A stretch of 64,000 nucleotides of DNA from NCBI RefSeq assembly GCF_011516655.1, contig NZ_WOSV01000001.1, positions 372,001 to 436,000 on the forward strand, written 5' to 3'. The position numbers and the translations under genes were made by a program. Source of the stretch: Acetobacter thailandicus (GTDB lineage: Bacteria > Pseudomonadota > Alphaproteobacteria > Acetobacterales > Acetobacteraceae). The notes below the pieces were generated by a model. The model made no database searches, was not told the origin of the DNA, and saw only the letters and a list, made by a program, of their open reading frames with translations. This document shows, in pieces, positions 3,182-11,034 of the stretch; positions within the stretch are counted from its first letter, which is position 1; the number at the start of each line of letters is the position of its first letter.

Positions 3182-3658
3182 TTACCGCACATATACCCTG
3201 ACAACAGGCTTCGTCACTGATGAATCAGGCATAGCTGTTATCTCAACCTGCCCGGGCGGAGCACCCGCTTCTGTCAGAGCCTCAACCATAGCCTGACCAT
3301 CTGTTTTCACCAGATCTGTCAAAGCAGATCTGTCATGATCCGGCAGCCCGCTTGAAGGCACCAGACATTTCACGGTAAATAAAATGTTTGCTTTGCTCTG
3401 CAAAGCCTTTTTTACCATCGTTTCTACAGGGACACGCCATTCTTCTGACGGCGTGCCGGCAACAACCTGAAGCAACGGAGGCACAGGAGGAGGACCTGGT
3501 GGCTGTGGCGGAATATAAGGTACAGGAGGTTTGCCCGCCTGTGGATTAAATGTTTTCTGGTCGATCAGCTTACAACCGCTCAGGCACAGAACCGCCCCCA
3601 GCAGTGCGCTCACCCTCATAACCGAGCGCTGTGCAGTAATAGAAATAACAGAGGGCAT
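3182..3658 (-). CDS. Small proline-rich lipoprotein of unknown function
   Basis: Up to 158 residues. An LSGC lipobox follows a hydrophobic stretch, so the protein is probably lipid-anchored in the envelope. The more natural signal peptide begins at the internal ATG at 3619 (MRVSALLG...), giving 145 residues; neither start has a convincing ribosome site. A Pro/Gly-rich linker (PPVPYIPPQPPGPPPVPPLL) is followed by a compact domain of about 95 residues with no recognised motif. It lies upstream of hemA on the same strand with a gap of some 90 bases. No function is proposed. Confidence 0.6.
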   Translation of the reverse strand: MPSVISITAQRSVMRVSALLGAVLCLSGCKLIDQKTFNPQAGKPPVPYIPPQPPGPPPVPPLLQVVAGTPSEEWRVPVETMVKKALQSKANILFTVKCLVPSSGLPDHDRSALTDLVKTDGQAMVEALTEAGAPPGQVEITAMPDSSVTKPVVRVYVR

Positions 3659-3811: not shown

Positions 3812-3863
3812 TTGTCCCGCTGCTAAGGCGGTTTATACTACCGCCATTCTTACAGCGGGACAA
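3812..3863. promoter_or_regulatory. Nested palindrome overlapping candidate promoter of the tkt-like/gap/pgk unit
   Basis: The outer arms are a perfect 11-bp inverted repeat, TTGTCCCGCTG (3812-3822) and CAGCGGGACAA (3853-3863). Inside is a second pair, GGCGGT (3827-3832) and ACCGCC (3840-3845). A plausible sigma-70 promoter lies within it: -35 TTGTCC (3812-3817), a 16-bp spacer, and -10 TATACT (3834-3839). This points to an operator covering the promoter; an alternative is a stable 5' leader hairpin. The first start codon is 41 bases downstream. Confidence 0.6.
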
Positions 3864-3903: not shown

Positions 3904-5895
3904 ATGGCGACGTCAGACTCCACACGTCAGGGTCATCAGAAAAAAAATGAGCGGCGCTCTGCCCAGGCTACGGCAGTTTTGCGTATGGCTGGTACGGTCA
4001 GGCAACTTTTGTCTGAAACCGGGCATATCCCGCCTGCAAGCCGTGCTCTCGTTGAACTGATGTGTCTTCCGGTTACTGCTTTATGGTGTCGGGTACTGCG
4101 CTTTGACCCGCAAGCCCCTACGTGGCCTGACAGAGACCGCTTTCTTGTACCTTCCGCCTCTATGTTGCCACTGCTCGACATTATGCTCAGCCTGACTGGC
4201 AGCTCAGGCCCCTACAAAACGCCCCAAAACACGCACACTGAAATTGCCCCCGGGCCTGCCAGCTATGGTATTGCAGCCGCGGCCGGAATGGCACTGGGCG
4301 AGCAGACACTCGCCAGTCGCTTCGGCCGCTCTCTCATCAATCACCGGACATGGGCCGTTGTGCAGGATACAGACCTGGCGTCAGGAGCCGCGACAGAGGT
4401 CGCTCAGCTCGCAGGACAATCAGGCCTCGACCGGCTGACACTTCTGGTCGCATCACTATCTGACAGTCCCTCTCCTGAACTCATCACTTCACTCGCGCTT
4501 TTTCAGGCATCGGGGTGGAATATCCGTAAAATCACAGCGGGCGACCTGTCATCCGTTACATCCGCTCTGGCCGCGGCTCTGCGCTCAAGAAAGCCGACAC
4601 TAATCGTCTGCTCCCCCTCACCGGCCCGCAAAAGCTCAGATGAGCAAAACTCCCTTCCTCCGGCAGAACTCACGGGGCCATGGAGTCTTACAGCACGGCG
4701 AGGCGCATCTGCGCGCCGTTCGTGGCTACGCCGCCTGGTAAGGCACCGGCAGCGCAGCACCTTTCAGCGCGAGCAGATGGAACAGCTGCCTCCCCTTTTG
4801 TCCGAAGACTGGCTGCGCACATGGCGCTGGCATATGCGCCGATCTCATGACAGATCAACAAAAAACGCAAGCCTTGTCGCCTTTCATACTCTGGCAGGTC
4901 TTCTGCCAGAAATTATGTGCCTCTCATCCTCCGCTCTTCCTCTGCCTTCTGACATCCTGACGGACCATACTTTATCCCCCCCTGAAAATAGCACCGTCAT
5001 CTGCGGCTCTAAAGCTGAAGGGATGTCAGGTCTTATGATCGGACTCGCTCTGCATGGCGGGTTACTGGCCTGTTGCCAGGCCCCCCTGATAGCGGCAGAC
5101 CGAATGATGACAGCCCTGCGTATGGTCGCCTTTATGCGCAGAAAAGTGCTGCTTTTGCTGACTGAAAACAAACTCAATCAGGACTGTCTCAGCGGTGGTC
5201 TGCTCTCAGCAGAGCAGCTGCCGGCACTGCGGGCCATTCCTCACCTTGCGGTGTTTCGTCCCGCCAATGTGCACGAAACATTTCAGTGCTGGGAGGCAGC
5301 TCTTCGCTGGAAAGACGGGCCGTGCGTGCTCAGCCTCACCCCGGATGAAAACCCTGACACCCCTTTTCCCAAAAGCTGTTTTGGCAGCCCATCGCGCGGC
5401 GGATATCTGCTGCAGCATCAGCATGCCCCCCAGGTCACCCTTATCGCCTCAGGCTCAGAGGTTGCCATCGCGCTCGAAGCATCGCACCATCTGGCGAAGC
5501 AGGAGATTCGTACCGCGGTCGTGTCACTTCCCTGCTGGAAACTTTTTGCGGACCAGCCTGAAACCTATCGCCAGAAGGTTCTGGGCGGATCTGGCATACG
5601 AGTCGGTATCGAAGCCGCCTCAGGTTTTGGATGGGAACAGTGGCTTAGTCCCGGTGGAGTTTTTGTAGATATGAACGCTCTGAACATTTCTGCTCAGACC
5701 GGCACCTCATATGATCGTTCCGGCAGCATTGCCGAAGCGGTCTGCGAAGTGGTGAAACATCACCTTTTCGCATCAGGCATGATGCGGGACTCTCTCCCGC
5801 AGGCAGGCCTCCCCTCCGTGGACAAAAACGCGGAAAGCCACTCTGGCAAAGTCATAAAACAAGAATGGAAAACTCAACAATGGCAGTCAAAATAG
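3904..5895 (+). CDS. Transketolase homologue lacking catalytic residues (probable pseudoenzyme)
   Basis: The 663 residues follow the transketolase plan: PP domain (about 25-240), Pyr domain (about 320-490) and C-terminal domain (about 505-620). Conserved framework is clear, as in WPDRDRF, GIALHGG-like GLALHGG and LRAIPHLAVFRPA. Most active-site positions are changed. The NGHGS His is gone (PSASM, 83-87). The ThDP/Mg motif GDGxxxEG reads QDTDLASG (154-161). The DDNxIxIDG segment is SLSDSPSPE. The cofactor-activating Glu of REFGM is Ala371 (SKAEGM), and the His of GPTHQP is Leu433. Only the TGH His (H41) persists. A ThDP enzyme seems excluded; a structural or regulatory role is possible. It overlaps gap by 16 bases, so translational coupling is likely. 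Confidence 0.82.
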   Translation: MATSDSTRQGHQKKNERRSAQATAVLRMAGTVRQLLSETGHIPPASRALVELMCLPVTALWCRVLRFDPQAPTWPDRDRFLVPSASMLPLLDIMLSLTGSSGPYKTPQNTHTEIAPGPASYGIAAAAGMALGEQTLASRFGRSLINHRTWAVVQDTDLASGAATEVAQLAGQSGLDRLTLLVASLSDSPSPELITSLALFQASGWNIRKITAGDLSSVTSALAAALRSRKPTLIVCSPSPARKSSDEQNSLPPAELTGPWSLTARRGASARRSWLRRLVRHRQRSTFQREQMEQLPPLLSEDWLRTWRWHMRRSHDRSTKNASLVAFHTLAGLLPEIMCLSSSALPLPSDILTDHTLSPPENSTVICGSKAEGMSGLMIGLALHGGLLACCQAPLIAADRMMTALRMVAFMRRKVLLLLTENKLNQDCLSGGLLSAEQLPALRAIPHLAVFRPANVHETFQCWEAALRWKDGPCVLSLTPDENPDTPFPKSCFGSPSRGGYLLQHQHAPQVTLIASGSEVAIALEASHHLAKQEIRTAVVSLPCWKLFADQPETYRQKVLGGSGIRVGIEAASGFGWEQWLSPGGVFVDMNALNISAQTGTSYDRSGSIAEAVCEVVKHHLFASGMMRDSLPQAGLPSVDKNAESHSGKVIKQEWKTQQWQSK

Positions 5896-6902
5896 CAATT
5901 AACGGCTTCGGACGGATCGGGCGTCTTGTCCTGCGTGGACTGATTGAAAGCGGGCGGACAGACGTTGTGCCTGTAGCTATTAATGACCTGGGCAGCGTTG
6001 AAGCAAACGCGCATCTGCTCTCATATGACAGTGTGCACGGGCGTTTCCCTGCTGATGTAAAGGTTGACGGCAATAAGCTGATTATTTCTGCCAATGGCCG
6101 CACATGGGATCCGATTACTGTCTCTGCCGAACGTGACCCGTCAAAAGTACCTTTCAAAGGTATTGATGTGGCGATGGAATGTACAGGCCTGTTTACATCA
6201 AAAGAAAAAGCAAGCCCTCTGCTCCAGGCCGGCGCACGTAAGGTACTGATCTCAGCACCTGGTACTGATGTAGATGCGACAATTGTTTACGGTGTGAACC
6301 ACGATATTCTGACATCGGATATGACTGTCGTCTCTAACGCTTCATGCACAACCAACTGCCTGGCACCAGTAGCAAAAATACTTGAAGATCATTACGGCAT
6401 TGAACGCGGCTATATGGTCACCATCCACTCCTACACAGGTGACCAGCGCACAGTTGACACCCTGCACAAAGACCTCCGCCGCGCTCGTGCATCCGGGCTG
6501 AACATGATCCCGACATCAACCGGTGCTGCCCGTGCTGTAGGTCTTGTTCTGCCGCACCTCAAAGGCAAACTCGACGGCACAGCCATTCGTGTACCAACGG
6601 CTAACGTCTCTCTGGTATCACTTGATATTGTGCCTAAAAAAATCCCTGGATCGGTTGAAGAAATCAATGATCTCTTCAAAAAAGCCTCTGAATCCGGCCC
6701 GCTGGCTGGTGTTCTGGCCTATTCAGATGCCCCTCTGGTAAGCTCTGACTTTAACCATGCTATTGCCTCGTCCTCTTTCGATGCAACTCAGACCACCCTG
6801 GTTGATGGCGGCAAAATGGTTCGTGTCTGCTCATGGTATGATAACGAATGGGGCTTCTCTAACCGTATGGCTGACACGGCTGCTCTGCTGGGATCTCTGT
6901 AA
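5880..6902 (+). CDS. gap: Glyceraldehyde-3-phosphate dehydrogenase
   Basis: 340 residues from ATG 5880 ([15 protein letters not shown]), seven bases after GGAAA. An in-frame ATG at 5865 is less likely. It oxidises glyceraldehyde 3-phosphate to 1,3-bisphosphoglycerate with NAD(P). Seen are the Rossmann GFGRIG motif, the catalytic SNASCTTNC with Cys156, and the C-terminal [13 protein letters not shown]. It overlaps the end of the transketolase-like gene and its TAA shares a base with the pgk ATG, so the three genes form one transcription unit. In acetic acid bacteria, which often lack full glycolysis, this pair can serve lower glycolysis, gluconeogenesis, or both; direction here is inference. 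Confidence 0.97.
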
Positions 6903-8125
6903 TGGCAGAACTCTCCTTCAACACACTCGATAATCTCAACCCGGCAGGTAAGCGTATTCTGCTGAGGGCGGATCTGAATGTACCGGTTAAAGATGGTAAG
7001 ATTACCGACTTTAACCGTATTGAGCGGATTGTACCCACAATCCGCGAGCTCTCTGACAAAGGGGGGCGGGTTATTATCATCAGTCATTTTGACCGCCCCA
7101 AAGGCAAGGTTGTGCCTGCGATGTCACTTCAGCCTATAGCTGAAGCACTGGCCACAAAACTTGGCAAACCTGTCAGCTTTGCGCATGACTGCATTGGCCC
7201 GGATGCTGAGGCTGCGGCCATGTCTCTCAAAGACGGCGAAGTGCTGGTACTTGAAAATACACGCTTCTACCCTGGTGAAGAGGCCAATGCCCCTGACCTG
7301 GCCACAGCGCTCGCAAAACTGGGCGATGTGTACGTCAATGATGCGTTCTCAGCAGCACATCGTGCCCACGCCTCAACCACAGGCGTAGCAGACCATCTTC
7401 CTGCTTTTGCAGGACGTCTGATGCAGGCTGAACTGACAGCTCTCGACACCGCTCTTGAAAATCCTGACCATCCGGTCGGAGCCATTATTGGCGGAGCCAA
7501 GATCTCAACAAAACTGACTTTGCTGGAAAATCTTCTGGAAAAAGTTGATGTTCTGATCGTTGGTGGCGCAATGGCAAACACCTTCCTTGCGGCAAAAGGC
7601 TATAATGTCGGCAAGTCTCTCAAAGAAGAAGACATGCTGGATACAGCCCGCCAGATTATGGAAAAGGCTAAAGCCAGAAACTGCGAGCTGGTTCTGCCCG
7701 TCGACGTCGTGCTGACACAGGATTTTATTGCAGGCGCACCAACAACTGTCGCTGGTGTGGCTGACATTCCTGATGGCTGGATGGCTCTTGATGTTGGCCC
7801 TGAAACAGTCACGCTGCTGAAAGAAAAACTGAGCACTCTGAAAACACTGGTCTGGAACGGGCCACTTGGTGTTTTTGAGCTCCCTCCGTTTGATATTGGC
7901 ACCACGACGATTGCTCTCGAAGCCGCACGCCTGACAAAAGCCGGCACGCTGAAAACGATTGCCGGTGGTGGGGACACAGTCTCTGCCCTGCGTCACGCCG
8001 GTGTGCTGCATGACATGACCTATGTCTCAACAGCAGGCGGCGCGTTTCTGGAATGGATGGAAGGCAAAATTCTGCCTGGCCTGACTGCTCTGAGCAGAAC
8101 GCTTGAGCGCACTATTCCGATTTGA
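6902..8125 (+). CDS. pgk: Phosphoglycerate kinase
   Basis: 407 residues, slightly longer than the usual 390-400. It transfers phosphate between 1,3-bisphosphoglycerate and ADP. Motifs visible are [13 protein letters not shown] with the substrate Arg and Asp, SHFDRPKG, the [12 protein letters not shown] segment, GGAKISTK, and the C-terminal GGGDTVSAL nucleotide loop. The start codon overlaps the gap stop (TAATG). The unit ends at a strong hairpin immediately downstream, so pgk is its last gene. Confidence 0.97.
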
Positions 8126-8137
8126 CCGAACGATACC

Positions 8138-8169
8138 AAAGGTCTGGCAGATAACCCTGCCAGACCTTT
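8138..8169 (+). terminator. Terminator after pgk
   Basis: A perfect 13-bp inverted repeat, AAAGGTCTGGCAG (8138-8150) and CTGCCAGACCTTT (8157-8169), with a 6-nt loop. It lies between pgk and the convergent phosphatase gene and probably serves both. Confidence 0.85.
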
Positions 8170-8175
8170 ACCTGT

Positions 8176-8847
8176 TTATTCGCGCCTGAGCACCTGGTCC
8201 GTCATGAAAGAGGCCAGCTTACCCGCCACAAAATCACGCTTCAGGGCCACTTCATCATATTCATCACGCACCCAGTCAAGGAAAGGCAGACGCCCCTCGG
8301 CTTCAGCCTGGTAGCGCAGAAAAAAAGCGTCGAGAATACCAGTGCGGGACTGCTTAAAATGTCCGTAACGCCACGACAACTCTTTCATAGCGCGTGCGGC
8401 ACTTCCCCCTTCGAACACAATAACCAGGGCTGAAGCCAGCCCCGCTCTGTCGGCCCCTGATTTGCAGTGCATCAGCATCGGGAAAGCAATAGTCTTATAC
8501 AATTCTGCAAAACGCAGAATACGGTCACGATGTGGTGCACCACGACTTTCAAAAGCCATATCCACATGGGTAAGACCCAGCTTTTGGGCAGCCTGACGCG
8601 ACAGGGCATCAGAACCACATTTGCGGTGCCCGCGCAAATTAACAAGTGTGCGTAACCGGTAGCGATTCATCGCCCGTTTTAAGCGGGCGGGCGTGGGGTG
8701 ATTACACCGGTATACCTTGCCAGGAACCACCTCCTGAAAATTTGTCCAGACCAGCCTGAAAATAGCATGATCGACAAAAAGACTGTCGACCCAGGCTTTA
8801 ATACGTCTTGCCGGGGAGGTTATCTGACCATCAAACACAGCGTACAC
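8176..8847 (-). CDS. Dual-specificity/tyrosine phosphatase-like protein
   Basis: About 223 residues. The signature HCKSGADR (H127-C128-x5-R134) is the Cys-x5-Arg catalytic loop of Cys-based protein tyrosine and dual-specificity phosphatases. An Asp upstream (VDMAFESRGAPHRDR region) could be the general acid. The N-terminal half contains VYRCNHPTPARLKR, typical of bacterial DSP-like proteins that act on phospho-protein or inositol phosphate substrates; the substrate here is unknown. No signal peptide was seen, so it is probably cytosolic. The start is a GTG with a close GGAG site; a second GTG three codons later is equally possible. Confidence 0.78.
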   Translation of the reverse strand: MYAVFDGQITSPARRIKAWVDSLFVDHAIFRLVWTNFQEVVPGKVYRCNHPTPARLKRAMNRYRLRTLVNLRGHRKCGSDALSRQAAQKLGLTHVDMAFESRGAPHRDRILRFAELYKTIAFPMLMHCKSGADRAGLASALVIVFEGGSAARAMKELSWRYGHFKQSRTGILDAFFLRYQAEAEGRLPFLDWVRDEYDEVALKRDFVAGKLASFMTDQVLRRE

Positions 8848-9492: not shown

Positions 9493-11034
9493 TTATTTGC
9501 TCTCTTTTGCCAGACGATAAAGGTCGAGCGAGAAATAAGGAAGCTTTCCTTTACGCTGCGTCAGAGCGTTGACTGAATAAATAAGAGTATAATTCTTCTT
9601 CAGTACATCACAGACTGAGCGTTCAGCGTTACCTGTCATACAGGCATTAAATGGGGTCATCACCAAAGGCGGGTGCTGCGCAAGGTCATTCAGATAACGC
9701 TTCTCTGCCCCGGCCCCAAACATAATATCAACGTGATCTGTAAACGCGTAGCGGTCAAATGTTCTGAAATCGCCCATGTAAAAAAAAGCCTGATCAGCAC
9801 GAATATTTAATACACGCTGATGAGCGGCCTCACGGGTTATCAAAGCATAATCAATAAAGGACATATCCCACAGCCAGCGTATATTACGACCGGTACAAAA
9901 ACCCTGAGAAATAATAGAAACAATACATAAAAATAAAAAGCTATACCGTGGGAATTTAACATTCTGATAAAATAATACAGATGCCATAATAACAAGAGGC
10001 ACAAAACATAAAATATAATAATGGTTAAAAGGATGACCTGAAAGAACAGTCGCGGGTAATGATGAAATAAACCATAATGGCAATAGAAGCGAAGATGGTT
10101 CTCCTGCCCTCATCTCTTCCCGGTATTTGCGATACCAGAGTAGTAAGACCGGAAGAAACATAACTGTATATGCTATAGTGCATAATACACTGGAAATTCT
10201 GCTAACAGTATTGCCACCATAATTTTGCAGGAAATCATGCTGCATACGGAAATAACTCTGTAGCGCATTATTCCCTTCTATAAGGTAGGGAGAGAAAGAC
10301 GTCAGCAGCCCAACTATGCATCCAATCGAAAATATAAAAATATACTGTAATTTAAAAAAACGAGGAGAAAACAAAAGAAACAAAACAGGTAAGAAAAGAG
10401 AAACTGCAACCAGATAATTAATATTAATTAAAAGAGGGATCATAAACCCGGGAATGAAATAATTAACAAATCTTTTATTTGATAACCCACTATATAAAAC
10501 AGCAAGAACAATAGAAGAACCGGCTGTTAAAACATTTTCTGTATTCCCATCGAGAATTCCAAATATATTCCCGAAAAAAACATAAATAAACGATGCTGTA
10601 ATAATATTAAAAACGCCAAAAAACCGACAAAAATAAAGCGTAACAGCACCAAGAACTAAAGATAAGAAAAAGAAATCGCCGTGGAAAAAAGGACATATTT
10701 TATCCCACGCACCATAAAATAAATAAACACCCCACGGTTTATGATCAAATGCATAACTATAAGGTAACATATGGTCGCGAAAAATACCGCGCCCTACCAT
10801 AGTATAGTAAACAGTATCACCATTACCATATGGAAGATATAAAAAAGACAATATAGCAAGAACTGTTAAAAACGATCCCAGCCAGAACATCCATTTTTTT
10901 CCACAAAAAATTGGCAGAGACTCTAAATTATTTAGTGTTTTTATTAAAAAATCTATATTTTGTTTCACAGCAGGCCTGCACAATATTACTCTTAATAATG
11001 AGATTACAGGAATGTATCCAAAACCTGCCCCCAA
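9493..11034 (-). CDS. Polytopic membrane glycosyltransferase-like protein (GT-C/PMT type)
   Basis: Up to 513 residues with about ten hydrophobic segments and a periplasmic C-terminal part. The first loop has GNGDTVYYTMVGRGI followed by FDHKPWGVYLFYG. An acidic residue in the first loop followed by an [D/H]KP segment is the pattern of GT-C enzymes (ArnT/PMT-like) that use lipid-linked sugars, so a role in surface glycan modification is inferred. The start is unclear: a TTG at 11034 and a GTG at 10968 are both weak. Composition is much more AT-rich than flanking genes, which may reflect membrane-protein codon use or transfer. Confidence 0.65.
   Translation of the reverse strand: MGAGFGYIPVISLLRVILCRPAVKQNIDFLIKTLNNLESLPIFCGKKWMFWLGSFLTVLAILSFLYLPYGNGDTVYYTMVGRGIFRDHMLPYSYAFDHKPWGVYLFYGAWDKICPFFHGDFFFLSLVLGAVTLYFCRFFGVFNIITASFIYVFFGNIFGILDGNTENVLTAGSSIVLAVLYSGLSNKRFVNYFIPGFMIPLLININYLVAVSLFLPVLFLLFSPRFFKLQYIFIFSIGCIVGLLTSFSPYLIEGNNALQSYFRMQHDFLQNYGGNTVSRISSVLCTIAYTVMFLPVLLLWYRKYREEMRAGEPSSLLLPLWFISSLPATVLSGHPFNHYYILCFVPLVIMASVLFYQNVKFPRYSFLFLCIVSIISQGFCTGRNIRWLWDMSFIDYALITREAAHQRVLNIRADQAFFYMGDFRTFDRYAFTDHVDIMFGAGAEKRYLNDLAQHPPLVMTPFNACMTGNAERSVCDVLKKNYTLIYSVNALTQRKGKLPYFSLDLYRLAKESK

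Follow-up and report, generated by a model that had tools for sequence, protein, structure and literature searches.

Directly upstream of gap and pgk in Acetobacter thailandicus lies a long open reading frame (ORF) that resembles a transketolase with a ruined active site. Is it an unusual enzyme, a decaying relic, or a protein retained for something other than transketolase chemistry? A first-pass annotation, made from the sequence alone, favoured the last of these. I examined the ORF within a stretch of 64,000 nucleotides (contig NZ_WOSV01000001.1, positions 372,001 to 436,000; hereafter the window), and in related genomes.

The ORF and its gene unit

The elements of the unit, in window coordinates, are:

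3812..3839, plus strand: promoter-like site TTGTCC-16-TATACT upstream of the pseudo-transketolase (9/12, a weak consensus match only)
3904..5895, plus strand: pseudo-transketolase ORF (663 amino acids, transketolase fold, 1 of 20 cofactor/substrate positions left)
5880..6902, plus strand: gap, glyceraldehyde-3-phosphate dehydrogenase (conserved ATG start at 5880, other ATG at 5865)
6902..8125, plus strand: pgk, phosphoglycerate kinase (its own ATG shares one base with the gap stop)
8138..8169, plus strand: terminator-like hairpin of 13 pairs, 3' of pgk, the probable end of the unit

The frame is intact, as first described, being open over 663 amino acids, and it lies directly upstream of gap on the same strand, as a member of the operon. 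It also heads a tight unit, with gap overlapping it by 16 nucleotides and pgk then overlapping gap by one base. The first-pass annotation had called it fused to gap by overlap; the overlap is real, but there is no fusion, only 16 shared nucleotides counted from the ATG at 5880 (31 from that at 5865). Promoter-like sites number 4 in the region against 2.5 expected from shuffled sequence, and terminator-like hairpins 9 against 5.3. Homologues of the window gap in three genomes of the same genus are 85–86% identical to it.

The gap start (5850-5882) is without the ACGGAG-like ribosome site found in most relatives, and is overlapped by the upstream ORF; translation of gap may be coupled to that ORF in the window. 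Among the best 80 of 493 named-genome loci (see below), 78 of the 79 with gap downstream, live and dead alike, have no such overlap. On the minus strand, the surroundings include a proline-rich, lipoprotein-like ORF without a Pfam match (3182-3658), a tyrosine phosphatase family gene convergent with pgk (8176-8847), and a 513-residue ORF without a Pfam match that is hydrophobic by eye (9493-11034).

The fold is kept and the active site is lost

Retention of the transketolase fold, proposed earlier, is borne out by prediction: the Pfam transketolase domains of the 663-residue protein score above their cut-offs, and an AlphaFold2 model (pLDDT 83.9, pTM 0.84) matches solved transketolases along the chain (best match 4xeu, E 2.9e-37, TM 0.73, rmsd 5.3), with the three domains of that fold. 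The protein thus shares its fold, its Pfam domains and a similar length with TktA and the TIGR00232 family, whose intact members hold the identical place before gap in related genomes. It differs from them in scoring far under the TIGR00232 equivalog cut-off (255.6 against 682.25), in its shortened or absent loops (near TktA His100, Asn185-Asp190 and His261), and in its active site.

I scored 20 cofactor and substrate positions, taken from TktA biochemistry (30 TktA positions were compared at first, 20 being scored afterwards; G116 and R409 were left out for a letter mismatch with TktA). Nineteen of the 20 are at least 97% invariant among 49 live gap-linked copies. Both Escherichia coli TktA and the second transketolase of the window genome have 20/20; the window protein has 1/20, the sole survivor being the Asp of the GDG motif, and lacks the other residues for thiamine diphosphate (ThDP), Mg and substrate. 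All five positions named at first are changed: the His of NGHGS is Ser, GDG reads DTD, the DDN-ISIDG loop is gone, TktA Glu411 is Ala371 and His473 is Leu433. That list needs correction only in that the Asp within GDG remains, and the damage, at 19/20 positions, is wider than was first seen. A catalytic set merely displaced in the alignment was considered and rejected, as no residues at shifted positions were found in alignments with TktA, the genome's own transketolase or the live linked copies. The intact tkt sought elsewhere in the genome lies on contig 4, at 201601-203706.

The protein is therefore an enzyme homologue whose catalytic residues are lost, and its reading as a conserved pseudoenzyme without catalysis is well supported. 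That it might still be a working transketolase with an unusual site is scarcely credible given the single remaining Asp and the TIGR00232 score, even though APA386B_1521 is entered as a second transketolase in a published reconstruction of A. pasteurianus 386B (PMC3751514).

Occurrence in Acetobacter and in named genomes

An orthologue is found in 47 of 49 Acetobacter genomes, called at 41–57% identity against 27–37% for the genuine transketolase. The 38 of these scored at the active site all have 0–5/20, and gap adjoins the orthologue in 38 of the 39 loci with flanks read. Close relatives carry orthologues with comparable losses, a point that the first-pass annotation asked to be checked. The two other genomes (G236 and G237; 1.5 and 1.7 Mb, the smallest in the genus) gave no match to the pseudo-transketolase, only to the genuine enzyme.

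A scan of named genomes with the single window protein as query gave no match. With an alignment as query, the best 80 of 493 loci were taken, and these include Acetobacter, Gluconacetobacter, Komagataeibacter, Novacetimonas and others, the nearest named relative among the matches listed being Acetobacter orientalis. Of these best 80, 55 are dead (0–5/20), 24 intact and one half-way (16/20); gap follows within ~220 bases downstream in 79 of the 80, and adjoins 54 of the 55 dead copies. Among 69 dead copies uncut by contig ends, 67 consist of one continuous frame of no fewer than 480 amino acids, the two broken frames (L059 and L060) coming from the same genus and possibly reflecting assembly error. 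To judge by sequence, the window protein belongs to a family-wide orthologous group, and is not unique to one genome.

Repeated loss beside a second transketolase

To follow the gene across the family, 200 genomes were drawn; gap was found in 191, not all with coordinates, and the stretch upstream of it was read for 122 loci of the draw (30 + 92) and for 8 extra members of the genus. In 84 family genomes the linked gene could be classed, as an intact or near-intact transketolase in 51 (among them a copy truncated at a contig end, a 16/20 copy, and two, in L109 and L118, that lie ~1.4 kb from gap) and as a dead one in 33. Another 29 family genomes have no such gene within 4.5 kb upstream of gap, so that whatever job the pseudo-transketolase performs is dispensable there. 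The remaining nine loci are unclassed because of contig ends, breaks, short length or lack of linkage. Four short ORFs (L060, L062, L084, L093) were left out before site scoring, and two others, L149 (truncated, 10/20) and L059 (frameshifted), were scored and are absent from later sets.

In each of the 33 genomes whose linked copy is dead, another transketolase is encoded at a separate place, against more than one transketolase match in 12 of the 51 with a live linked copy (Fisher 1.2e-13, kinship ignored). On a tree, 40 unlinked transketolases form four groups; about 12 of the 33 other transketolases are not among these 40, a match to the Tkt of the window genome being the sole evidence for them. 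Half-decayed forms also exist, with site scores of 16, 13, 12, 8 and 6 of 20, and all five of these genomes, when searched again, hold another transketolase. Three members of a single genus score 16 (L124), 13 (L016) and 3 (L021) of 20.

The origin of the dead forms was addressed with a tree of 108 rows, and with a mixture-model tree of 32 rows. In both, the dead copy of L018 pairs with a live copy as its sister, away from the main dead clade (SH-aLRT 99 and 100), and a second, L020, also falls outside that clade in the 32-row tree, with weak support. Constraining the dead rows to a single origin is rejected (AU p = 0.001; p = 0.037 with the half-decayed L124, at 16/20, counted as dead), the tested group having been defined with the first tree already known. 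Since one origin is rejected, the trees indicate two or more separate losses of catalysis in the operon copy, which was itself retained.

The constant presence of a second transketolase raises the possibility that the dead protein forms a heterodimer with the genuine enzyme and alters its activity, as proposed for human TKTL1, which is reported to form heterodimers with TKT although it does not itself bind ThDP (PMC12525540). A complete fold in the predicted structure would allow this, and a possible partner is present in 33/33 of the genomes with a dead linked copy. The genuine transketolase is, however, only ~27% identical to the window protein and comes from four groups across lineages, so that a single dimer interface common to all is hard to picture, and the gene stays with gap in 54 of 55 named genomes. 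I consider this explanation unlikely, though not negligible.

Dead copies are under purifying selection

Codon models gave an omega of 0.150 for the dead copies of 16 Acetobacter, and 0.157 and 0.129 for dead clades of 6 and 7 sequences, compared with 0.069 for eight intact gap-linked tkt and 0.030–0.053 for gap. In these three dead clades, omega = 1 is worse by 530–1531 log-likelihood units. By domain, the Acetobacter values are 0.33 for the N-terminal tail, 0.10 for PP, 0.12 for the linker, 0.10 for the pyrimidine domain and 0.19 for the C-terminal domain. Pairwise dN/dS (NG86) is 0.03–0.18 for close dead pairs, and 0.18–0.19 for the two most distant. Purifying selection on the dead copies is weaker than on the live enzymes and far from neutral.

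Maintenance by selection is therefore seen at the level of the clade (omega 0.13–0.16), not from the window branch alone. Together with the orthologue in 47/49 genomes, these values agree with the original proposal that an intact frame with a dead site reflects selection for a non-catalytic role. The alternative raised alongside it, a plain pseudogene absent from relatives and decaying fast, is contradicted by the same two results, and is ruled out for the clade.

A milder version, in which the gene is a functionless relic still decaying and so far undisrupted, draws on an omega that is 3–5 times the gap value and roughly double the value for live linked tkt, on the broken frames of L059 and L060 (if these are not assembly errors), on the absence from the two smallest of 49 genus genomes, and on the window copy itself, the most divergent of 23 compared. 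I regard it as very unlikely, and largely refuted for the clade, in view of the strong rejection of omega = 1, the single frames of 67/69 dead copies, and the new residues common to 40 of them (described below).

The window copy retains 90 of 100 columns conserved in other dead copies, compared with 95–100% for the 22 others tested. Relative to the outgroup L005, its transketolase-like protein is 47.4% identical, against 60.6–62.1% in five sister genomes. An acceleration special to this gene was considered and set aside: the window gap is also less conserved relative to L005 than in the five sister genomes (85.9% against 88.8–91.5%), and the window lineage is thus fast as a whole. The window pseudo-transketolase gene may in addition be somewhat relaxed.

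Action in cis or in trans

The frame could also be kept for an effect in cis on gap, as a leader, by translational coupling or through an internal promoter, with an idle protein. At fourfold sites, nine Acetobacter pairs diverge by 0.08–0.16 in the last 60 codons, against 0.22–0.43 in the preceding 80. This drop, to about a third of the upstream level, is clear only in the Acetobacter pairs, the other groups offering few sites. With so few synonymous differences there, the 3' end of the pseudo-transketolase gene in Acetobacter may contain a promoter or RNA signal for gap. In the window, these last ~60 codons correspond to about 5715-5890. No conserved RNA hairpin was found before gap, the hairpins varying between species.

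A precedent for control within such an operon exists in Legionella, where a CsrA/Rho switch within tkt-gap controls gap (PMC5338858), and the overlap of ORF and gap in the window suggests coupling. A purely cis role would nevertheless leave the amino acids of some 600 codons free, while omega is 0.10 in the PP and pyrimidine domains.

A further case is Acetobacter sp. AN02 (L253 3866-10954, a draft assembly). There gap is on another contig, and the pseudo-transketolase frame is open over 626 amino acids; a hemA-like gene, a lipoprotein-like gene and the pseudo-transketolase follow each other in the window order, and then comes an aconitase-like gene (names by eye). The ORF between the hemA-like gene and the pseudo-transketolase resembles, by eye, the window ORF at 3182-3658. 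An open frame without gap beside it, combined with the low omega, favours a protein acting in trans, as far as one case in a draft assembly can, and the unlinked copy in this draft weakens any need for co-expression with gap. I therefore hold the cis explanation to be distinctly improbable.

What the dead copies keep

In 67 dead copies, the catalytic columns are kept at 13%, compared with 58% for 249 other columns invariant in live copies; by this alignment, the loss is aimed at the active site. Among columns typical of gap-linked transketolases and not of 43 unlinked ones, 24 are kept in at least 90% of the dead copies, Arg271, Leu275 and Arg277 included, and 32 are gone in more than half. 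Two regions stand out:

4684..4782, plus strand: Arg-rich linker helix, codons 261-293 (10 K/R, 2 D/E)
5002..5217, plus strand: former cofactor pyrimidine pocket, codons 367-438 (C367, C390, R400, Q438 conserved)

The 33-residue TktA stretch at the place of the linker helix has 5 K/R and 6 D/E. R271, R272, L275 and R277 are common to live and dead gap-linked forms, and occur in 2–26% of the 43 unlinked transketolases, most of which belong to one group; W274 is found in E. coli TktA too. What live and dead linked forms have in common may owe as much to ancestry and a stable fold as to a surface for a partner.

In the old pocket, 40 dead copies, all from the largest dead clade, share Arg400 (40/40, at the position of TktA Tyr440), Gln438 (40/40), Cys367 (39), Trp at 433 (37) and Cys390 (35). 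Such new residues in common could mean that the cofactor pocket was rebuilt as a binding or catalytic site for a metabolite other than ThDP. The pocket is not uniform, however, as the Glu411 position keeps Glu in most Acetobacter copies and is Val in eight group C copies. The window copy has lost both that Glu (A371) and the Trp found in 37/40 (L433), and Arg400 is absent from the separate dead lineages (Tyr in L018, His in L020). A rebuilt site is thus rather improbable.

A proposed role

That the ORF encodes a selected protein that is not a transketolase seems very probable. As to what it does, a non-catalytic partner of Gap/Pgk is the role I find most likely, and I offer it tentatively. The two roles put forward in the first-pass annotation, regulation of a genuine transketolase or of Gap/Pgk assembly, are both conjectural. 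Linkage to gap, the separate losses beside different transketolases, and the traits that live linked forms have in common with dead ones would tie the older function to the gap-pgk node and not to the real transketolase. The gap-linked transketolase of Acetobacteraceae would already have had a second job independent of catalysis; another enzyme would then have taken over the chemistry, leaving only the second job under selection. The protein would fold as a transketolase-type dimer that acts in trans, binding or tuning Gap and/or Pgk, perhaps through surfaces common to live and dead gap-linked forms such as the Arg-rich linker helix (261-293). This account as a whole, a conserved pseudoenzyme with an older second job as partner of Gap/Pgk, I hold with somewhat less than even confidence.

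It is possible, if rather doubtful, that tkt-gap-pgk transketolases in general have a catalysis-free second function, probably that of organising Gap and Pgk. If so, the operon copy would become a pseudoenzyme whenever another transketolase takes over the chemistry, and ordinary gap-linked transketolases would have the same function without its having been noticed. Several rounds in which the chemistry was replaced and the protein retained amount to a natural experiment separating a possible moonlighting role from catalysis.

As for the wider genome context, pyruvate phosphate dikinase scores above cut-off in 16 of the 20 genomes that carry the dead gene (a set that includes G117, whose copy is unlinked, and the contig-end cases G009 and G132) against 5 of 29 that lack it (Fisher 2e-5), a contrast confounded by phylogeny and genome size. 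The window genome (G000) gave no dikinase match, unlike three other genomes of the genus tested. Fructose bisphosphatase (PF00316) is matched in 1 of 49 genomes, which is uninformative for a link to gluconeogenesis.

Relation to known systems

The trypanosome prozyme is reportedly a pseudoenzyme paralogue that activates its live partner. Like it, the pseudo-transketolase is a dead homologue kept beside a live enzyme; its own partner is only proposed, whereas the prozyme is said to activate the live one. Human TKTL1 is likewise a transketolase-like protein beside a genuine transketolase, with cofactor segments lost, although its inactivity is disputed, one study's title reportedly calling it a bona fide transketolase. 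In the present case, by comparison, the real enzyme is a distant homologue, the loss takes in nearly the whole site and arose two or more times, and the gene lies beside gap-pgk. TKTL1 is described as close to TKT, with a single 38-residue deletion; it has lost cofactor-binding segments, and coexists with genuine TKT (PMC12525540). The Legionella operon lpp0154-lpp0151 has the same order, tkt-gap-pgk; its tkt is described as encoding transketolase (PMC5338858), and differs in this from the dead gene of the window. Searches of the open-licence literature turned up no account of such a bacterial pseudo-transketolase.

Acetic acid bacteria are used for vinegar and for bacterial cellulose. The annotation of A. 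pasteurianus 386B has two transketolases, APA386B_1152 and APA386B_1521, of which the second adjoins gap (APA386B_1520) and pgk (APA386B_1519) by tag number (PMC3751514); from this numbering, APA386B_1521 would be the same gene as the window pseudo-transketolase. The published map of a cellulose producer shows four transketolases, and the pseudo-transketolase is possibly, not certainly, among them. Published maps of acetic acid bacteria thus appear to count this gene as a transketolase, and if it is dead, such maps are wrong at the pentose phosphate pathway node.
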